A stretch of 64,000 nucleotides of DNA from Anaerolineales bacterium (GTDB lineage: Bacteria > Chloroflexota > Anaerolineae > Anaerolineales > UBA4823): positions 1 through 64,000 of the forward strand of contig JAFGJM010000036.1 of the NCBI GenBank assembly GCA_016929095.1, in the 5' to 3' direction. The position numbers and the translations under genes are program-made. Positions 32,533-41,738 of this stretch are shown here, one piece after another. Every line of letters begins with the position of its first letter. Position 1 is the first letter of the stretch. The notes under the pieces are model-generated. The model worked only from the letters and a program-made list of their open reading frames with translations. It was not told where the DNA came from and did no database searches.

Positions 32533-33627
32533 ATGGAAGAGAAATACCTTTATCGCCAAATTGCCGAACACCTTCACCAACAGATCCTATCCGGTGAGAT
32601 AAAACCGGGAGACCGCTTACCCTCCGTCAGGGAAATGACGCGACACTGGAATTGTACGATCGGGACAATCCAGCGTGCTTACCAGGAACTGGTTGCCCAA
32701 GGGTTGGTCACCAGCCGGGCGGGGCAGGGAACGCGTGTGGTCGGTCAAATTCCGGATCAAGGGAATACGCCTCTGCGCCGTTTAAATATCCTGCACAGAG
32801 CAGAGGCATTCCTCCTGGAAGTACTCAATGCGGGTTACACGCAGGCGGAGATTGAAGAGGCTGTTCGGCTGGCGCTTGATCGCTGGCGCGCAGTCTCCAA
32901 GCGCCCCTCTGCACCCACGCCAAATATTGTACGTTTCATCGGCAGCCACGATCTGGCAGTTACCTGGCTGGCTTCCCATTTCCCGGAAATAGCATCAGGT
33001 TATTCGTTTCAGCCACAATTTACCGGAAGTATGGGGGGGTTGATCGCCCTGGTGGAAGGAAATGCAGATCTGGCGGGGTGCCATCTGTGGGATGAAGAAA
33101 GCCATACCTATAATATCCCCTTTATACAAAAGCTGTTGCCCGGAAAACAAATGGCTTTGCTGCATTTAGCAGAACGGCAGTTGGGTCTGATATTATCCCC
33201 GGGGAACCCTCTACGGATATCCGGATTAAAAGACATATGCGGCGACGGGGTGCGCTTCATAAATCGTCAATCCGGTTCGGGAACACGCGTCTGGTTGGAT
33301 TCTATGTTGCGGCAACATGGCATACAGACAGAGAAAATTTGTGGTTATGATATTGAAATGAATACCCATTCCGAAATTGCCAAAACGATCGCCGAAGGTA
33401 ATGCGGATGTTGGCTTAGGATTGGAAGCCTCTGCACATACATATGGATTGGATTTCACTCCCCTTACCTGTGAGAAATACGACCTGGTTTGCCATGCCAA
33501 TTCATTGAACAACCCTGCCATCCAAAAACTGGCGAAATGGCTATCCACATCAGAATCCAGGCAGGTATTTAGTAATCTGGCAGGATATGTAACTACTGAT
33601 ACCGGTAAGGTGACCATCATCGACTGA
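32533..33627 (+). CDS. GntR-type HTH regulator fused to a PBP-like (molybdate/tungstate-sensing?) domain
   Basis: 364 residues. Residues about 1-72 are a GntR winged helix (YRQIAEHLHQQILSGEIKPGDRLPSVREM, then GTIQRAYQELVAQGLVTSRAGQGTRVV). A linker helix follows and residues about 130-355 form a periplasmic-binding-protein-like domain: VRFIGSHDLAVTWLASHF, GSMGGLIALVEGNADLAGCHLWD, QSGSGTRVWLDSML and AEGNADVGLGLEASAHTYGLDFTPL. No signal peptide, so it is a cytoplasmic sensor. Such domains occur in MoeA-linked and ModE-like regulators. Divergent from the Mo/W genes, it is a good candidate for their Mo/W-responsive regulator; ligand and targets are inferred. Confidence 0.85.
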   Translation: MEEKYLYRQIAEHLHQQILSGEIKPGDRLPSVREMTRHWNCTIGTIQRAYQELVAQGLVTSRAGQGTRVVGQIPDQGNTPLRRLNILHRAEAFLLEVLNAGYTQAEIEEAVRLALDRWRAVSKRPSAPTPNIVRFIGSHDLAVTWLASHFPEIASGYSFQPQFTGSMGGLIALVEGNADLAGCHLWDEESHTYNIPFIQKLLPGKQMALLHLAERQLGLILSPGNPLRISGLKDICGDGVRFINRQSGSGTRVWLDSMLRQHGIQTEKICGYDIEMNTHSEIAKTIAEGNADVGLGLEASAHTYGLDFTPLTCEKYDLVCHANSLNNPAIQKLAKWLSTSESRQVFSNLAGYVTTDTGKVTIID

Positions 33628-33629
33628 AT

Positions 33630-35459
33630 TTACCCCATTCTATTTTCTTTATTCATTCTTTCGAGATATTCAGGCACATCGATCATAGGGGGGCGATCCA
33701 GTTCGGCTATTTCTTCGACATCCAAGAATAACCGCCCCGCGTCATAGCGGATTAATTTCATCGAGCGGTTAAGTTCTTCCAAAACACTTCTCCCGTAACG
33801 TTTCTCTAATTTTCGAAATACCGCTTGAATGATTGCAAACGACATTTTACTCAAAGCACTCAGATCCTGGTTTTTGTGAATGCGTTCTTTCAAATCCACC
33901 TGGGCAATCGAGCTTAAACCGAACATATCAAACATATCAATCAACAAACCGATTTCCACCCCATAACCGGAAAAGAATGGCAATTTCTCTAACGCCGTCC
34001 GCCGTCCACCATATTCACCCGACAATGGTTGGATTACGCCCGATAACTCCGGGTAAAAAAGGTTCAATAAAGGGCGGGCAGTGAGTTCGGTCACCCGACC
34101 GCCGCCGCCAACCTGGATCTTATTGCCAACCTTCAAGGGGCGGCGATAAAAACCCTTGACAAATTGCACGTCCTGCCTGGCTAATAACGGTCCAATAAGA
34201 CCGAAAACAAAGCGCGGATGAATATTAACAATATCGGTGTCGATCCAAAGGATAAGATCGCTTTGGAGTAAATACAGGCTTTTCCATAACGCCTCACCCT
34301 TTCCCGGTCGAGGCGAGAGCTTTGGTAATGTTAGTTGATGAATATATACCGGTATTTCCAAAGACCGGGCAATGTCGCGCGTACGGTCTTGAGAGTCCGA
34401 ATCGATCAGTATCAACTCATCCAATAACGGTTTCTCATCCATCAATGATTTTTTGATGGTTTGTATCACATTGCCAACCGTCTCCTCCTCATCCAGCGCA
34501 GGCATTGCCAGACCAATGCTAAGATTATTCTTTTTCTTTAATTTAAGAAGATAATCCAGGTCAGCAAATTCATCCGCATGGTATGTGTTTTCGGCAAACC
34601 ACTTATCGACCAAAACTGAAATCGCGGTATGCCCTGCCATTTCACTTTCAATCGGATGGGACATGGGACGTTTGGTTTTTACAGCAATCACCCCCACCTG
34701 ACACTGGTTCATGATCATCTCAGCAACCGGACCGAGAGATATCGGTGTGCCCTCAGGGCGGGCAGTAGTACCCATGATGACCATGTCAAATTTATTGGCG
34801 TGGTCAACAATCGTTTCCACCGGATTATCAGTAGCCTTTTTCCTTTGCCTGACTTCAGGGATGCTTTTTAAAATGCGATCGATGCCATAATAGGCGTCAT
34901 CACTGGCGGTACTCCCTTTTGCAGGGGCAATATGAAGCGCAGTGATCTTAGATTGGCAGTTACGGTTGATGGATAAAGAGATACGCAGGGCTAACTCGGC
35001 ATATACACCGCCGCGCATAGGTAACAGAATTTGCTCCGGGCAACTGGGAATAACTCCCCCCACGATAGCCATATCGCAAATGGAATCAATGAAAGCATCA
35101 GGTGAACTGTGAAGTATGGCTTTATATTGATTCGGCCATTCCAACACCATCAGGTCCGGTTTTTCTTCTTCAACAATTCTTTTCAAGTCTTGCCAGGGGT
35201 TGTGTGTCACATGGACGATGTCCAGAATTTTTACGCCTTCAAGGTTTTTGAGTTCTTTTAATTTGCTGCGCACCTTTCTGGCTTGATTTGTCCGTGTGGT
35301 AAGCGTCTCGTTCTCAGGCACTACGACAATCCCTGCCAATAATACCGTGGCGTCACCAGCGATATCCATCGCCGTGGATATGGCTGGCAGGTAGGGATAG
35401 CCATTCAAAATAGGTACCAATATTTTTCTAAATAAACTCAGGTTGTATCTTTTTTTCAT
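33630..35459 (-). CDS. gpgS: Glucosyl-3-phosphoglycerate synthase fused to tandem universal-stress-protein domains
   Basis: 609 residues. The first 265 residues read as two universal stress protein domains: ILVPILNGYPYLPAI at the start and, near 235-255, VIMGTTARPEGTPISLGPVAEMIM, a USP-type nucleotide-binding loop (degenerate in the first copy). From about 310 a GT81 glycosyltransferase begins: IGLAMPALDEEETVGNVI, DELILIDSDSQDRT, SPRPGKGEALWKSLY, the metal-binding LWIDTDIVN, then QPLSGEYGGRRTALEKLPFFSGYGVEIGLLIDM. GpgS transfers glucose to 3-phosphoglycerate, the first step to glucosylglycerate. Normal GpgS proteins are about 330 residues and lack the USP part. Last gene of the osmolyte operon; it converges on the GntR gene with a 2-bp gap. 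Confidence 0.88.
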   Translation of the reverse strand: MKKRYNLSLFRKILVPILNGYPYLPAISTAMDIAGDATVLLAGIVVVPENETLTTRTNQARKVRSKLKELKNLEGVKILDIVHVTHNPWQDLKRIVEEEKPDLMVLEWPNQYKAILHSSPDAFIDSICDMAIVGGVIPSCPEQILLPMRGGVYAELALRISLSINRNCQSKITALHIAPAKGSTASDDAYYGIDRILKSIPEVRQRKKATDNPVETIVDHANKFDMVIMGTTARPEGTPISLGPVAEMIMNQCQVGVIAVKTKRPMSHPIESEMAGHTAISVLVDKWFAENTYHADEFADLDYLLKLKKKNNLSIGLAMPALDEEETVGNVIQTIKKSLMDEKPLLDELILIDSDSQDRTRDIARSLEIPVYIHQLTLPKLSPRPGKGEALWKSLYLLQSDLILWIDTDIVNIHPRFVFGLIGPLLARQDVQFVKGFYRRPLKVGNKIQVGGGGRVTELTARPLLNLFYPELSGVIQPLSGEYGGRRTALEKLPFFSGYGVEIGLLIDMFDMFGLSSIAQVDLKERIHKNQDLSALSKMSFAIIQAVFRKLEKRYGRSVLEELNRSMKLIRYDAGRLFLDVEEIAELDRPPMIDVPEYLERMNKENRMG

Positions 35460-35470
35460 CGTCCAAAAAA

Positions 35471-36691
35471 TTAAATCATAAATAATGGGGCAATTTTCGT
35501 CTTATAGATATTATCCCATGTATACCGCGTCCGTACGGAGACGCGTAAATTAAATTGAAGATCATTACTCAATTGGTCATAAATCATATCTGCGACCTGA
35601 TTGGGTTCACTACTGACAGAAAAATACTTCACCATTGTACCCCCCAATTCGCGCAAGGGAGGAATATCGGAACAGAAGATGGGAATTCCGCTCAATCCAG
35701 CTTCCAATACTGGAATGCCAAAACCTTCTTCCATACTGGGGAATAACAAAGCATCTGCCAGGCGATAAAAATCCGCAATAACAGCATCCTCCAGGTAACT
35801 CTCGGAGAGTTCCGCCAGGAAATGAGCCGCGCCAACCAGATGGAGATCTTCCCGCAAGGCTAATAACCGCGAGAAATAATCCAGGTTAGCCGGGTTGTGC
35901 GGACCCAGAGGCCCGGTGACCACCAAGACCGCCTGGGGAAATTTTTGTTTCAGGAAATATAACGTTCGCAGCGCCATCTCGATATTTTTGCGTGTGGTAA
36001 TCCTCACCGGCAATAAAAGCAAAGGATGCGCCGCCATCAAATTGAGCTGCTCAATGAAAGCTGCCGTCTTGTCTTCCAATTTGAGAAATTGTTTGATATT
36101 TAAACCGTTGGGAATTACATGGATTTGATCAGGTGGAATTCCATATAGATTGGCTAACTCGCCCTGGCGCAACGTCGATACAACGACTTGAATTGCGGTT
36201 TGCCAATGAGTTTTCAGTAAATCCCAGGGAAACCCAGGGTACAACTCACTCTGATATCTAGGAGTACACCATGCCAGATCATGATGCCACAAAATCATGC
36301 GCGGCGCGCCCGGCTTTTCAGAAAACGCTTTCAAAGCCAGGGTTAGAGGAAGATTTTTATTCATGGAGGCAATATTGTGTGCAATCACCCAATCCAATCC
36401 CATCAAATTTTCATTAAGAGTCCGGGAAATTTTATCCACCAGGCAAGAAAATTCATCCGGAATTGACCCGCCATCCAAAATTCTTTTAACTGACAAAATG
36501 TCCGGATGGCGTGAATCCATGAGCGGGGTCGTTTTCATTGTGATATGTGGGTCTCCTTGCTCCCCTCGTCCCGCCAATATCATGACCCGGTGACCATCCT
36601 GCGCCAACAGGCGTGCATGGTGCGCTAAAACACTTTCTACACCGCCCACTACAGGAGGGGCGGAATAATGAAGTATGGCTATCTTGGACAT
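35471..36691 (-). CDS. GT4-family glycosyltransferase (osmolyte cluster)
   Basis: 406 residues. N domain opens IAILHYSAPPVVGGVESVLAHHARLL, with the GGVE loop typical of GT4 acceptor sites. The C domain has LLLPVRITTRKNIEMALRTLYFLK and the donor-binding LFPSMEEGFGIPVLEAGLSGIPIFCSD with the E(x7)E motif. Cytoplasmic retaining transferase, donor GDP-mannose or a UDP/ADP-glucose. Between the GH63-like hydrolase and GpgS it may extend glucosylglycerate, for example to mannosylglucosylglycerate; this is inferred from position. Spacing is 21 bp and 11 bp to its neighbours. Confidence 0.8.
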   Translation of the reverse strand: MSKIAILHYSAPPVVGGVESVLAHHARLLAQDGHRVMILAGRGEQGDPHITMKTTPLMDSRHPDILSVKRILDGGSIPDEFSCLVDKISRTLNENLMGLDWVIAHNIASMNKNLPLTLALKAFSEKPGAPRMILWHHDLAWCTPRYQSELYPGFPWDLLKTHWQTAIQVVVSTLRQGELANLYGIPPDQIHVIPNGLNIKQFLKLEDKTAAFIEQLNLMAAHPLLLLPVRITTRKNIEMALRTLYFLKQKFPQAVLVVTGPLGPHNPANLDYFSRLLALREDLHLVGAAHFLAELSESYLEDAVIADFYRLADALLFPSMEEGFGIPVLEAGLSGIPIFCSDIPPLRELGGTMVKYFSVSSEPNQVADMIYDQLSNDLQFNLRVSVRTRYTWDNIYKTKIAPLFMI

Positions 36692-36712: not shown

Positions 36713-38500
36713 TTACTCATCCCGAGCATCGTCTGCGCCCTCAAGAGAGGCTTGAATCGCCAGATCGATATATACCGCAGAAGACCAACCAAACACCGAA
36801 GCCGCTTTTGGAGGATTATCGCCTGTTTCCGGATGATAATATTCGTATATATCATTCTGTCCTGAAATCAATTCTAAAGTCAAGCGGCGCAATTGGTGCG
36901 CTATATTGGTAAATCCTGAATTTTTTAATCCCTCGATCAACAAGTAATTTACATTGACCCAGGTAGGTCCGCGCCACATTTGAGTCGGATTGTATTTGGG
37001 ATCATCCAGCGCCACCGTGGGTACCGGGAAGCGGGGCCAAAATTGGAGAGGGTCCGTTAAATGGGAGACCAGCCTTTGTGAAATACGTTCAGGCAATTGC
37101 CCGGTAAGCAAAGGAAACAGATTGAACGGAGTTCTCACCTTCACCGGTTTTCCATCTTTCAATGCCCAGAATATTCCGGCTTCTTCATCCCACATCAACC
37201 TCAGCATACGCTGCGCCATCGCCTTAGAACGTTTCGTCCAATATTTGGCAGCCAGCTTATCCCCAATTTCATTGGCAATTTTCGCAAGATAACTCTGTTG
37301 TAAACAAAGGTATGTGTTAAGGTCGGGCGATTCAACCGGAACGCCCTCGTCCCATAATGGGCTGTCATCCAGCCCGGAAGAAAACGGATGTAAATATTCA
37401 CACAAGCCATTTTTATTTAAATCGTTCTTGTTAAACCACCATTCATTCCAACGCACTATCGGTTCAAAAATTTCATCCAGAAATTCTCTATCGCCATCGT
37501 GCTCGAATAATTTCCAAGCTGCCCAGGCAATCAGAGGGGGTTTGGTCACATCGGCGTCTACCGGAAATGTTAGATGGGTGACCGTACCCTCATCGTGAAC
37601 GGCATCGGGTATCATTCCGTCTTCCCGTTGGTGATCTAATAAAATGCGCAGTTGATCCTGCGCCAGGCGAGTGTTCACATACCGGTATGCAATGGCGTGA
37701 AAAAACGCATCCCATTGCCAAACACCGACATAATGGACTTTGGAAGGCGTCATGGCTTCACGGGTCGTATAAAAACGGGTTGAGATCAACCCGGCTCCCA
37801 TCACCCACCAGGCAAAATAGTATTGCGCACGATATTGCGGGCTTACTGCCGGGGCGGCAGCAAACCATTCATGCCACTTTTTGGCCGCGATCTCGATCAT
37901 CGTTTGCGGCGCGGGAACATACCGGTTGAATCCCAGGCGGGGGGTGATGTTCAGCACCAGGGCTGAATCATCGTCTGCCTCCATATTAATGCTGATGCGG
38001 TGGCCTCTGTTTGTGTCGGGTTCAACACAATGGAATAAAATCTTTGCATTGGTCGTGTAGGCAAAATTACGGCGGATATCGCCGGTAAGCTGTAACACAC
38101 CGCCCCGCCGATCGGGCGTGGCTTTATCCAGATTTGCGGTAAATGTCACCCCGCATTTCCCTTTCGGTAATGTAACCATGATCGTTTCCGTATCCAAAAA
38201 TATCATGGTAAACATCCCCTGGATGGTATGGAATACCAGGCAATGGGGATAAGTCGTGATTTCAAAAGGAATGGGTGAGCCATCCGCATCGATAAATTGA
38301 AAATTATCCACAATGGGAGGTCTTTGCCGGTAAGCGGCAAGCTGGCCTTCCCGTTTAAACCAGCGCTCCGCCAGCCTTATGGATAAATGCTGGTTGGCAA
38401 GGAATACTAATAATCGTGAGCCCCGGTCGCTGAAAGGGATCCTTTTTAAGTCAAGTCGATTCTTCAATATTGATAAGTAAGGAGAAGCCAAATAATCCAT
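36713..38500 (-). CDS. GH63-like glycoside hydrolase, candidate glucosylglycerate hydrolase
   Basis: 595 residues. An N-terminal beta-rich domain (about 1-220) precedes an alpha/alpha-barrel: WQWDAFFHAIAYR, LLDHQREDGMIPDAVHDEG, YLHPFSSGLDDSPLWDEG and PTQMWRGPTWVNVNYLLIEGLK. These are landmarks of GH63/GH37-type hydrolases, with an acid in the WDAFF region and a base in the C-terminal part. In known bacteria this family includes glucosylglycerate and mannosylglycerate hydrolases that recycle the osmolyte. No signal peptide, so it acts on the internal pool. It starts directly after the GT4 stop (no gap). Confidence 0.8.
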   Translation of the reverse strand: MDYLASPYLSILKNRLDLKRIPFSDRGSRLLVFLANQHLSIRLAERWFKREGQLAAYRQRPPIVDNFQFIDADGSPIPFEITTYPHCLVFHTIQGMFTMIFLDTETIMVTLPKGKCGVTFTANLDKATPDRRGGVLQLTGDIRRNFAYTTNAKILFHCVEPDTNRGHRISINMEADDDSALVLNITPRLGFNRYVPAPQTMIEIAAKKWHEWFAAAPAVSPQYRAQYYFAWWVMGAGLISTRFYTTREAMTPSKVHYVGVWQWDAFFHAIAYRYVNTRLAQDQLRILLDHQREDGMIPDAVHDEGTVTHLTFPVDADVTKPPLIAWAAWKLFEHDGDREFLDEIFEPIVRWNEWWFNKNDLNKNGLCEYLHPFSSGLDDSPLWDEGVPVESPDLNTYLCLQQSYLAKIANEIGDKLAAKYWTKRSKAMAQRMLRLMWDEEAGIFWALKDGKPVKVRTPFNLFPLLTGQLPERISQRLVSHLTDPLQFWPRFPVPTVALDDPKYNPTQMWRGPTWVNVNYLLIEGLKNSGFTNIAHQLRRLTLELISGQNDIYEYYHPETGDNPPKAASVFGWSSAVYIDLAIQASLEGADDARDE

Positions 38501-39781
38501 TTACAATTCACCAAAGCACTCTGTGAGTAGTGTTTGTAACTCTCTTTCTAGAACAGAATAGGAATAAAAACGCCGCCCGATTTCATAATTTTTCACCGCC
38601 ATTTGTTCCATAAGGTTTTGGTCGCTGAGTACCTTACGGGTTTTTTCGATGGTTTGCGTGGTGATATAACCATCGAAAGCCACAACCTGGAAGCCTTTAG
38701 GTCTGAGATCAATATCGAAAATCGAGTAGCTGTTCACCACAATGGGGCGCGAATAATATATCGCTTCCAGGAATGCATTGCCAAATCCCTCGATATCGGA
38801 GGGATAAGTCACCATATCTGCGTGGGGATAAAGATCCCACAATGTATACACTTTTAGCCCATTTTCCAGTGTTCCACGCTGTTCACGGATGATATCGGAT
38901 ACAAAATTTACCGGTACAGAAAGCATCTCAGCATAATTACGCAGGTGCTTCTCGTAATCATAGCCTTCATCTCCCGAAGCATGGGAAATGACCAGCCGGG
39001 CAGGGATATCCAACCGGCTGACAATTTCAATGGCGTGCTCGATGCCTTTTCGGGGTACCACTCGCGTAGGCTGAAGCAGTAATTTTTCATGCGGTAAAAC
39101 ACCCAGCGACTGGCGGATGTCTTGAGTGTAGTTATCCTGTTTCTGAGGCGGCTGATCAAAATTCATGACATTAGGGATCAATGTGCTGGAAATACCTGTG
39201 CGTAAAGCGAGTTGATTGGCTGCCGAAGAGTTGATCACCACATGATGCACCGGGGGTAGGTGGGGTGGGAAAGACATATTGAGATAATCCCACACGCAAT
39301 TAACCAGAAAGCGTTTTCTTTCCCAAAAGAAATCATGATGGTGAGCAATCGTAGGCATCCGGGTTTCGATGATCACCTCAGTCAGGGCTAATCCTAAAGG
39401 GATATTTAAAGGAATTGCCAGAGCATTTTCAACAACCAATAAACTGATGTCGAATCTTCGAATGAATTCATATAATTTTTCTTTTAAATAATCCTTAACC
39501 AAATGGATCTTGCGTGTGATCTCTGGTGCGCGGATGTGATTATCAAAACACGCCACATAAATTTGATCAATCTCCGGATGCTTGAATAATGCTTCGGGGA
39601 CAATGAAATTTCGATCGTCCGGGCGGTCGGAAGCGCCGGCAAAATAGAAACAGGTATGTCCTAACCGTGATAAAACGGTCGCCCATTTTTCAGTTTCCAA
39701 GGAAACGCCATCGGTGCCGCAAAAACGCGTCGATATAATCCCAATGCGTTGGAATTCCTGACGATTTGACATATTTGCCAT
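38501..39781 (-). CDS. GT4-family glycosyltransferase, candidate mannosylglucosylglycerate synthase-type
   Basis: 426 residues from ATG 39781 with AAAGGTG upstream. N domain: IGIISTRFCGTDGVSLETEKWATVLSRLGH (GTDGVS acceptor loop). C domain: LLQPTRVVPRKGIEHAIEIVSRL and the donor site MVTYPSDIEGFGNAFLEAIYYSRPIVVNSYSIFDIDLRPKGF with the E(x7)E motif. This architecture resembles glycosyltransferases found beside glucosylglycerate enzymes. Its substrate cannot be fixed by sequence alone; a mannosyl transfer to glucosylglycerate is the working idea. Two GT4 genes in one cluster argue for a product larger than plain glucosylglycerate. Confidence 0.78.
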   Translation of the reverse strand: MANMSNRQEFQRIGIISTRFCGTDGVSLETEKWATVLSRLGHTCFYFAGASDRPDDRNFIVPEALFKHPEIDQIYVACFDNHIRAPEITRKIHLVKDYLKEKLYEFIRRFDISLLVVENALAIPLNIPLGLALTEVIIETRMPTIAHHHDFFWERKRFLVNCVWDYLNMSFPPHLPPVHHVVINSSAANQLALRTGISSTLIPNVMNFDQPPQKQDNYTQDIRQSLGVLPHEKLLLQPTRVVPRKGIEHAIEIVSRLDIPARLVISHASGDEGYDYEKHLRNYAEMLSVPVNFVSDIIREQRGTLENGLKVYTLWDLYPHADMVTYPSDIEGFGNAFLEAIYYSRPIVVNSYSIFDIDLRPKGFQVVAFDGYITTQTIEKTRKVLSDQNLMEQMAVKNYEIGRRFYSYSVLERELQTLLTECFGEL

Positions 39782-39989: not shown

Positions 39990-41738
39990 TTACGCTTCAA
40001 GGAGAAGCCACCGGGTTTGATAAGGTTTTAAAGTTAAGGCAGCTTTCTTATTCAAAACCACAACTTGCCGACTGATGATCTCTTTGATTCCCATAAAAGG
40101 CCTATGATAATGGGGGGAAACATCAATCGCGATTGGCTGGGGAGAATCCGATACATTGTGCAAACACAAAATACTCCGCTTTCCTTCTTCCAAAAACCTA
40201 TGCACAGCAAATACCGCTGGATTTCCTGATATGATGCCTTGTCCGCCATAAGGGTTGAATTCGGGGTATGCGGCGCGAGCTTTAAGGATTGAAGCCATAC
40301 GAGAATATACCTGAAACCGCCTCGAGCTTTCGAGTGATAATTCTTCTTCTAATTTACCCCGTTCCAATTTTTGACGATTGATGGTGCGTTTGATGCCGGT
40401 TAACTGCACCCCTTCTTTCCATCCACGTGAGCCAAAAAGGCTGTGGAAATAGATGCCCGGGACACCACACAGCGCACATAAAATCGCATGTGCCGTTACA
40501 AATTTCTCTACTTGATATTGTTGGGATACATTTGGCTGAGCGCCGTTAAGCGCATCAAAATAATTCACATTTAATTCATATGGGCTGTGGTTGCCATCCG
40601 GTTCCTGTTTATATGAAACTTCGCCTCCGGCTTTCAGGACATTTTTGATTATTGAATCGATCTCATCAGGAGATAAAATACCCCGCGCCGGATTCAGCCC
40701 AATGCCATCATGAGAAGCCAGGAAATTGAAAAAAGTACCCCCAGGCAAATCGGATGTGAGCTGCTCAGCCCAGGCAGACAATGTGTCCGCATTTCCGGTC
40801 AACATTGTGTGCAGTACTAAGGGCGGGAGGGCAAAATTATAAACCAGATGTGCTTCGCTGATACCGTCACCAAAATATGAAATGTTATCGCGGTGAGGGA
40901 CATTTGTCTCGGTGATAATCTTCACGTATGGGGCAACCTCATCCAACATCAAGCGCATGATCTGAATGATATGATGGGTCTGGGGCAAATGAATGCAAGT
41001 GGTACCTATTTCTTTCCAAATAAATGCTATGGCATCCAGGCGAATATAGCGGGCGCCTTTTTCGACATAAAAAAGCAAAACATCTAAAACATCCAGCAGC
41101 ACCTCGGGATTATGATAATTCAGATCCACCTGATCAGTGCTGAATGTCGTCCAAATGCTTCGTTTCCCATTGGCGGCATCAAACTCGGTGAGCAGGGGCA
41201 AAGCTCGCGGTCTTACAACCCGCGATAGGTCTATATGTTTTTCGACCTCAATAAAATAATCACGGTATTTTGGCTGACCTTGGAGGAATTGTTTGAACCA
41301 TTCACTTTGAATTGAGATGTGATTAACCACCGCATCGAACATGAGATGAAAATCTTGCGCCAGGCGGTCAATATCGTTCCAGGTTCCCAAAGCGGGATCG
41401 ACCTGATAATAATCGATCACCGAAAAACCATCATCAGATGAATAGGGGAAAAACGGCAAAATGTGAATCCCATCGATGACGCCTTGAAGATAACGAGTAC
41501 AAAATTCCGCCAAAGACTGTAAAGGCATTCGCCCGGCTTCTTTCACCTGATCCCCATAAGTGATCAGAAGTGCATTGCGTTCGGTGAGCTCTCCCGCAAT
41601 ATTTAGGTCAATGGGATGAAGTTTTTTATAATGATGGATTTTATCTTGCAGGCGTGTGTAGACGTCGCCGCCTGTTTCGTAACCGTATAGGTCTATGAGA
41701 AGGTATTTTAATTTTGCTACACCCTGGTCAACTGGCAT
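39990..41738 (-). CDS. GH13_18 sucrose-phosphorylase-like enzyme, probable glucosylglycerate phosphorylase
   Basis: 582 residues. GH13 landmarks: IHILPFFPYSSDDGFSVIDYYQVDPALGTWNDI, MFDAVVNHIS, nucleophile region ARYIRLDAIAFIWKEIG, acid/base ITETNVPHRDN and FLASHDGIGL. This is the GH13_18 group of sucrose phosphorylases, which also holds glucosylglycerate phosphorylases that cleave glucosylglycerate with phosphate to glucose-1-phosphate. The gpgS neighbourhood favours that activity over sucrose. No Shine-Dalgarno sequence is visible before ATG 41738. First gene of the cluster, just downstream of two tRNA-Ser genes. Confidence 0.82.
   Translation of the reverse strand: MPVDQGVAKLKYLLIDLYGYETGGDVYTRLQDKIHHYKKLHPIDLNIAGELTERNALLITYGDQVKEAGRMPLQSLAEFCTRYLQGVIDGIHILPFFPYSSDDGFSVIDYYQVDPALGTWNDIDRLAQDFHLMFDAVVNHISIQSEWFKQFLQGQPKYRDYFIEVEKHIDLSRVVRPRALPLLTEFDAANGKRSIWTTFSTDQVDLNYHNPEVLLDVLDVLLFYVEKGARYIRLDAIAFIWKEIGTTCIHLPQTHHIIQIMRLMLDEVAPYVKIITETNVPHRDNISYFGDGISEAHLVYNFALPPLVLHTMLTGNADTLSAWAEQLTSDLPGGTFFNFLASHDGIGLNPARGILSPDEIDSIIKNVLKAGGEVSYKQEPDGNHSPYELNVNYFDALNGAQPNVSQQYQVEKFVTAHAILCALCGVPGIYFHSLFGSRGWKEGVQLTGIKRTINRQKLERGKLEEELSLESSRRFQVYSRMASILKARAAYPEFNPYGGQGIISGNPAVFAVHRFLEEGKRSILCLHNVSDSPQPIAIDVSPHYHRPFMGIKEIISRQVVVLNKKAALTLKPYQTRWLLLEA

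Follow-up and report, generated by a model that had tools for sequence, protein, structure and literature searches.

Locus and domain architecture

The window, a stretch of 64,000 nucleotides from an Anaerolineales bacterium (GenBank assembly GCA_016929095.1, contig JAFGJM010000036.1, positions 1 to 64,000), carries a gene for a 609-aa protein made of two universal stress protein (Usp) domains followed by a GpgS domain with its catalytic residues intact (Table 1). In Pfam, PF00582 (Usp) matches two stretches of the protein (E 1.3e-12, best at residues 143-261; 48.9 bits vs a cut-off of 24), followed by a GT2 domain, and 40 of 41 diverse members also match PF00582. The Usp assignment from the single sequence is weak in the PDB; a profile of 41 diverse relatives (A2) matches Rv2623 (1.8e-16), AF1760, TTHA0895, MJ0577 and TeaD (7e-10). 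Modelled alone with AlphaFold2, the tandem forms two complete Usp folds (pLDDT 91.4, pTM 0.90), and Foldseek places it with UspE/PA1789, Rv2623, TTHA0350 and AF1760, as well as with the cytosolic regions of KCC/NKCC cation-chloride cotransporters and their prokaryotic relative 3g40. PA1789 and UspE are likewise tandem Usps, but they stand alone and are 12-16% identical to the fused tandem. The reading of the N-terminal extension of about 265 residues as two Usp domains in the original prediction is thus borne out. A GT-A domain is seen in the full-length model (pLDDT 85.5, pTM 0.67), in which the domains are placed too loosely for a Usp-GT interface to be claimed.

Table 1. Features of the Usp-GpgS gene and its cluster, in window coordinates
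Feature	Position	Strand	Details
Whole Usp-Usp-GpgS gene	33630..35459	(-)	609 aa, ATG start, no internal stop; ORF listing, Pfam, NCBIfam, AlphaFold2
Usp domain 1, residues ~8-137	35049..35438	(-)	Degenerate, invariant R64; AlphaFold2 secondary structure, conservation
Usp domain 2, residues ~142-262	34674..35036	(-)	PF00582 143-261, profile vs PDB Usp, AlphaFold2
Arg149, RGG(P) loop after strand 1 of Usp2	35013..35015	(-)	Arg in 110/111 fused proteins
Remnant nucleotide loop of Usp2, residues 230-244	34728..34772	(-)	G-x2-A-x9-G-P; first Gly invariant, Ser/Thr lost
Linker Usp2-GT, residues 263-281	34617..34673	(-)	Low confidence in model; no conserved internal Met
GpgS (GT-A) domain, residues 282-595	33675..34616	(-)	NF010496 356 bits; Foldseek 3o3p/3f1y, 7pho, 5jsx
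DxD metal/nucleotide-sugar motif, D407-T408-D409	34233..34241	(-)	D407, D409 in 111/111
His528, conserved active-site histidine position	33876..33878	(-)	111/111; aligned with GpgS/MpgS
GT4 glycosyltransferase (GT4a), directly upstream	35471..36691	(-)	Adjoins in 75/80 related loci
MGH1/GgH-like GH63 hydrolase (glucosyl/mannosylglycerate hydrolase-like)	36713..38500	(-)	PF22422 E 5.9e-78
GT4 related to mannosylglucosylglycerate synthase (MggS)	38501..39781	(-)	241 bits, under 640 cut-off; 57/80 loci
GH13_18 phosphorylase-like (sucrose/glucosylglycerate phosphorylase group)	39990..41738	(-)	54/80 loci

The gene closes a cluster that runs from the GH13_18 phosphorylase-like gene through the MggS-like GT4, the GH63 hydrolase and GT4a. 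Neighbour counts are over 80 related loci, several of them on contigs that end early; the GH63-like hydrolase, with PDB relatives 2z07/4wva and 5ohc, occurs in 12 of these. GT4a also lies beside the fusion in most distant loci, and was not recognised there in L164, L168 and L170. GH13_18 includes strict glucosylglycerate phosphorylases (PMC11009771), and in two distant Chloroflexota a glycerate kinase lies directly downstream of Usp-GpgS (L164:6769-7941, reverse strand; L168:8978-10204, forward strand). The cluster genes and these glycerate kinases together fit glucosylglycerate or mannosylglucosylglycerate metabolism, in agreement with the osmolyte context first proposed for the gene. For the dephosphorylation step, a search of the organism's own genome for a HAD-type MPG phosphatase (TIGR02463) returned only a 22-bit match, which was rejected.

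A forward-strand gene at 32533-33627, close to ABC-transporter genes, converges with the Usp-GpgS gene. It joins a GntR DNA-binding domain to a PBP-like domain (PF12727) akin to the C-terminal part of a molybdopterin biosynthesis protein, and its product is possibly a molybdate/tungstate one-component regulator.

Catalytic domain and distribution of the fusion

Residues 284-595 match the NCBIfam GpgS equivalog NF010496 well above its cut-off of 262 bits, and phmmer against the PDB recovers M. hassiacum GpgS, R. xylanophilus MpgS and M. tuberculosis GpgS. Foldseek leads from the GT part to GpgS/MpgS crystal structures, the fold being equally close to Rubrobacter MpgS. The DxD motif aligns with those of M. 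hassiacum GpgS and R. xylanophilus MpgS, and D407, D409, R455, T457, E458 and H528, which make up the DxD, the GRVTEL acceptor loop and the histidine, are invariant in all 111 fused proteins. With known GpgS enzymes (NF010496; M. tuberculosis 5jsx, M. hassiacum 7pe4) the domain shares the GT-A fold, DxD, GGGRVTEL acceptor loop, active-site His and ~41% identity, whereas those enzymes are stand-alone proteins of ~325 aa without Usp domains. Score and catalytic residues thus uphold the GpgS identity originally given to the domain; its putative reaction is glucose transfer from UDP/GDP-glucose to 3-phosphoglycerate, with UDP-glucose, GDP-glucose or GDP-mannose as the candidate donor.

A mannosyl-3-phosphoglycerate or dual-donor synthase, with mannosyl- or mixed glycosylglycerate as the controlled product, would agree with the best Foldseek matches, both to R. 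xylanophilus MpgS (3o3p, 3f1y; TMt 0.89), a stand-alone GDP-mannose user that has the FYPEL/QPL block in common with the fusion, and with a mannosylglycerate hydrolase relative and an MggS-like GT4 as neighbours. We consider it unlikely, given that the curated GpgS cut-off is exceeded by about 94 bits, that identity is 40-43% to GpgS vs 36% to Rubrobacter MpgS, in which the consensus is partly lost on alignment (N at the H528 position), and that the GH13_18 neighbour and the glycerate kinases of L164 and L168 fit glucosylglycerate.

Genome G288 encodes, beside an intact Usp-GpgS, a second Usp-Usp-GT paralogue (L200:1337-3247, forward strand) with DPS instead of DxD and with GGGRVTEL and the active-site His lost; it looks catalytically dead and is possibly a regulatory pseudo-enzyme.

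A GTDB contig scan yielded 142 relatives, and the 80 kept for analysis all have the same Usp-Usp-GpgS architecture; nearly all come from MAGs of Anaerolineae or other Chloroflexota, together with the cultured Flexilinea flocculi and Thermanaerothrix daxensis. Among 301 Chloroflexota genomes, drawn evenly, GpgS was found in 87, and pairing the GpgS and Usp match lists by position placed a Usp tandem in frame with GpgS in 87/87 (about 40-60% identity range; the matches of G115 and G167 are in pieces). The 80/80 contigs and 87/87 genomes rule out chance or mis-assembly as the source of the fusion. An apparent stand-alone Chloroflexota GpgS (G217:C993, 309 aa) was discarded, its N-terminus being cut at a contig end and its sequence grouping with fused forms. 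GpgS of another phylum and the crystallised enzymes stand alone at about 325-390 aa; three of the former (L121-L123; 336, 329 and 359 aa) score as well against NF010496 as the fused proteins and bear out the expected norm of about 330 residues. Such a length is a usual trait of GpgS, not a defining one, and the fusion departs from it. Fusions outside Chloroflexota (L045 Deltaproteobacteria, L052 Acidobacteria, L124) were rejected as an independent origin; at 57-80% identity to Anaerolineae proteins, they point to mis-binned contigs or recent transfer. The fused GT domains are set apart by a branch of the GT tree (85/87), which is compatible with a single fusion event, though not strong proof of one.

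The Usp tandem: residual pocket and kinship

The Usp part is much looser than the GT part (2.3-2.5 vs 3.6 bits per column), and within it R64 of Usp1 (111/111) and G230 (111/111) and G243 (108/111) of Usp2, the latter two corresponding to the first and last glycines of the ATP loop, are fixed or nearly so. The "recognisable nucleotide loop" of the original prediction holds for the spacing and the ribose-contacting glycine, both preserved in Usp2, but not for the canonical motif G-2x-G-9x-G-(S/T), present in 0/111 Usp2 and 2/111 Usp1 domains. In the Usp2 loop, Ala or Ser mostly stands in for the middle glycine and Pro for the Ser/Thr, and the Asp of VPxDGS, a ligand-contacting column in ATP-binding Usps (Table 1 of PMC3673472), is replaced by Arg149 in 110/111. 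A canonical ATP-binding Usp of the UspFG type is thereby rejected on sequence grounds, ATP sensing in the classic mode is unlikely, and the tandem is probably not an ATP sensor; we assign the protein to GpgS by score and residues and to Usp by fold, outside the canonical ATP-binding Usps.

With a noncanonical motif in all 111 Usp2 domains and nearly all loop residues substituted in some, a conserved ligand is uncertain. Loop degeneration is still compatible with a ligand: ATP is bound by TTHA0350, whose site is degenerate, whereas the structure of PA1789, which shares the G-x2-A-x9-G pattern of the fusion, contains no nucleotide (PMC3673472). The Usp of KdpD, a c-di-AMP receptor with an osmotic role, resembles the fusion in lacking the ATP motif and keeping the first loop glycine, which alone serves the ribose of c-di-AMP (PMC8214093), but it is a single Usp within a histidine kinase. 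Usps of this type are recognised by SxS-x20-FTAxY or (A/G/C)xSxSx2N(Y/F), and a scan for the first of these motifs found no SxS-x20-FTAxY-like match in the 111 fused proteins; a KdpD-like c-di-AMP Usp was rejected by that motif. A diadenylate cyclase is encoded in the same genome, so c-di-AMP may be bound by another mode.

The fixed arginines may just as well have a structural role or mediate dimerisation, and the main rival to a control function is a structural or assembly module with no regulatory ligand, which would di- or tetramerise GpgS or dock GT4a (in genus g81, trehalose-6-phosphate synthase) and help to channel the phosphorylated or glycerate intermediate. Crystals show tandem Usps as dimers of tandems (PMC3673472), the ATP motif has been lost, the nucleotide-free PA1789 is a top fold match, and GT4a is the immediate neighbour in most loci, near and distant. 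Docking of GT4a is nevertheless not a universal role, as the three loci in which it was not recognised indicate, and the fixed Gly230, together with the Arg that is fixed where the ligand was once contacted, suggests a retained pocket, for which ATP-bound TTHA0350 offers a precedent (PMC3673472). We regard such an assembly role as possible rather than probable.

Among relatives, the tandem has its closest match outside GpgS in the C-terminal tail of an amino-acid permease (L134; AA_permease_2 plus two Usp), found by the A2 profile at E 6e-49 over residues 6-264 and so across both Usp domains. With a permease tandem as query, most matches are GpgS fusions or permeases, and a few are stand-alone tandems. 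Judged by these matches and by the Usp tree, the GpgS tandem belongs to the permease-type tandem Usp lineage (L134, L176, L203) and is homologous to it domain for domain; the permease-type tandems differ in sitting on a membrane transporter, in having Ala/His at the Arg149 position in 4/5, and in a loop nearer G-x12-G-[NSTD]. Permeases with a Usp tandem are also known in archaea (PMC3673472). The Usp tree was rooted on two canonical tandem Usps, which leaves the direction between permease and GpgS contexts unsettled.

Stand-alone tandem genes exist besides the fused ones. In four genomes of genus g81 (L204, L205, L206, L211), a genus with no GpgS match in the scan of 301 Chloroflexota genomes, such a gene runs up to or into the start of a gene for GT20 trehalose-6-phosphate synthase (OtsA), to which it is translationally coupled; in L205 the stop codon of the Usp gene and the ATG of OtsA overlap. 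These tandems nest inside the GpgS-type Usps (98/94, 100/98, 99/95), and Arg149 is kept in 4/4. Elsewhere, stand-alone GpgS-lineage tandems lie near ABC-transporter genes in two genomes that also have a fused GpgS (L207 in G111, L208 in G071), and in L209 and L210 a stand-alone permease-type tandem overlaps the frame of a GT4 glycosyltransferase.

A passive relic of one ancient gene fusion, retained solely for the folding of a GpgS that has come to depend on its new N-terminus, would account for the lower conservation of the Usp columns, and one origin suffices for the one-sided GT tree. We think this very improbable: some 265 residues with a complete fold, no frameshift and invariant residues persist in 87/87 genomes, the module has separated and been paired anew with a different osmolyte synthase, and GpgS elsewhere folds without it.

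Candidate control of osmolyte synthesis

To our knowledge, how the rate of glucosylglycerate synthesis is controlled in bacteria is largely unknown, and the direct molecular roles of Usp domains have rarely been pinned down. The phylum-wide fusion suggests on-enzyme control of osmolyte production, and we give about even chances to the reading that GpgS activity is controlled by the attached tandem in response to a small anionic ligand. This reading draws on the retention of the fusion in every GpgS-bearing Chloroflexota genome, the invariance of the GT catalytic residues, the fixation of G230, R149 and R64 amid loose Usp columns, the homology to permease tails and fold likeness to cotransporter cytosolic domains, the pairing of an Arg149-bearing tandem with GT20 trehalose-6-phosphate synthase in g81, and the precedent of the osmotic Usps TeaD and KdpD. 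TeaD of Halomonas (3hgm) acts on ectoine uptake and ties the Usp fold to a compatible-solute function, as is proposed for the fusion. Unlike the fusion, it is a separate single-domain protein that acts on a transporter and binds ATP, being counted among the ATP-binding Usps (PMC3673472). In KdpD, Usp domains regulate osmotic functions (PMC8214093).

Under the control reading, the tandem would form a two-lobed clamp on the GT domain, and the remnant pocket with Arg149 would bind a small anionic ligand, such as an AMP-type nucleotide or another phosphorylated signal, and probably not ATP through its triphosphate. The ligand-bound tandem may then tune the rate at which 3-phosphoglycerate is diverted into a (glucosyl)glycerate osmolyte under stress.

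No paper joining Usp and GpgS was found among open-licence PMC papers, consistent with the original statement that no example had been described. Usp architectures surveyed in 2013 include fusions to kinases, TrkA, KdpD, exchangers, CLC and permeases, with no glycosyltransferase among them (PMC3673472), and the word "glycosyltransferase" is absent from a 2025 review of archaeal Usps. A Usp tandem covalently joined to one assayable enzyme throughout a phylum is a clean and directly testable system. That this Usp lineage has been paired anew with trehalose-6-phosphate synthase suggests a control module common to Chloroflexota osmolyte synthases: tentatively, a transferable, Arg149-marked Usp tandem may govern compatible-solute glycosyltransferases in this phylum, fused to GpgS or, as a separate gene, translationally coupled to trehalose-6-phosphate synthase, and would do so allosterically through a ligand other than ATP.
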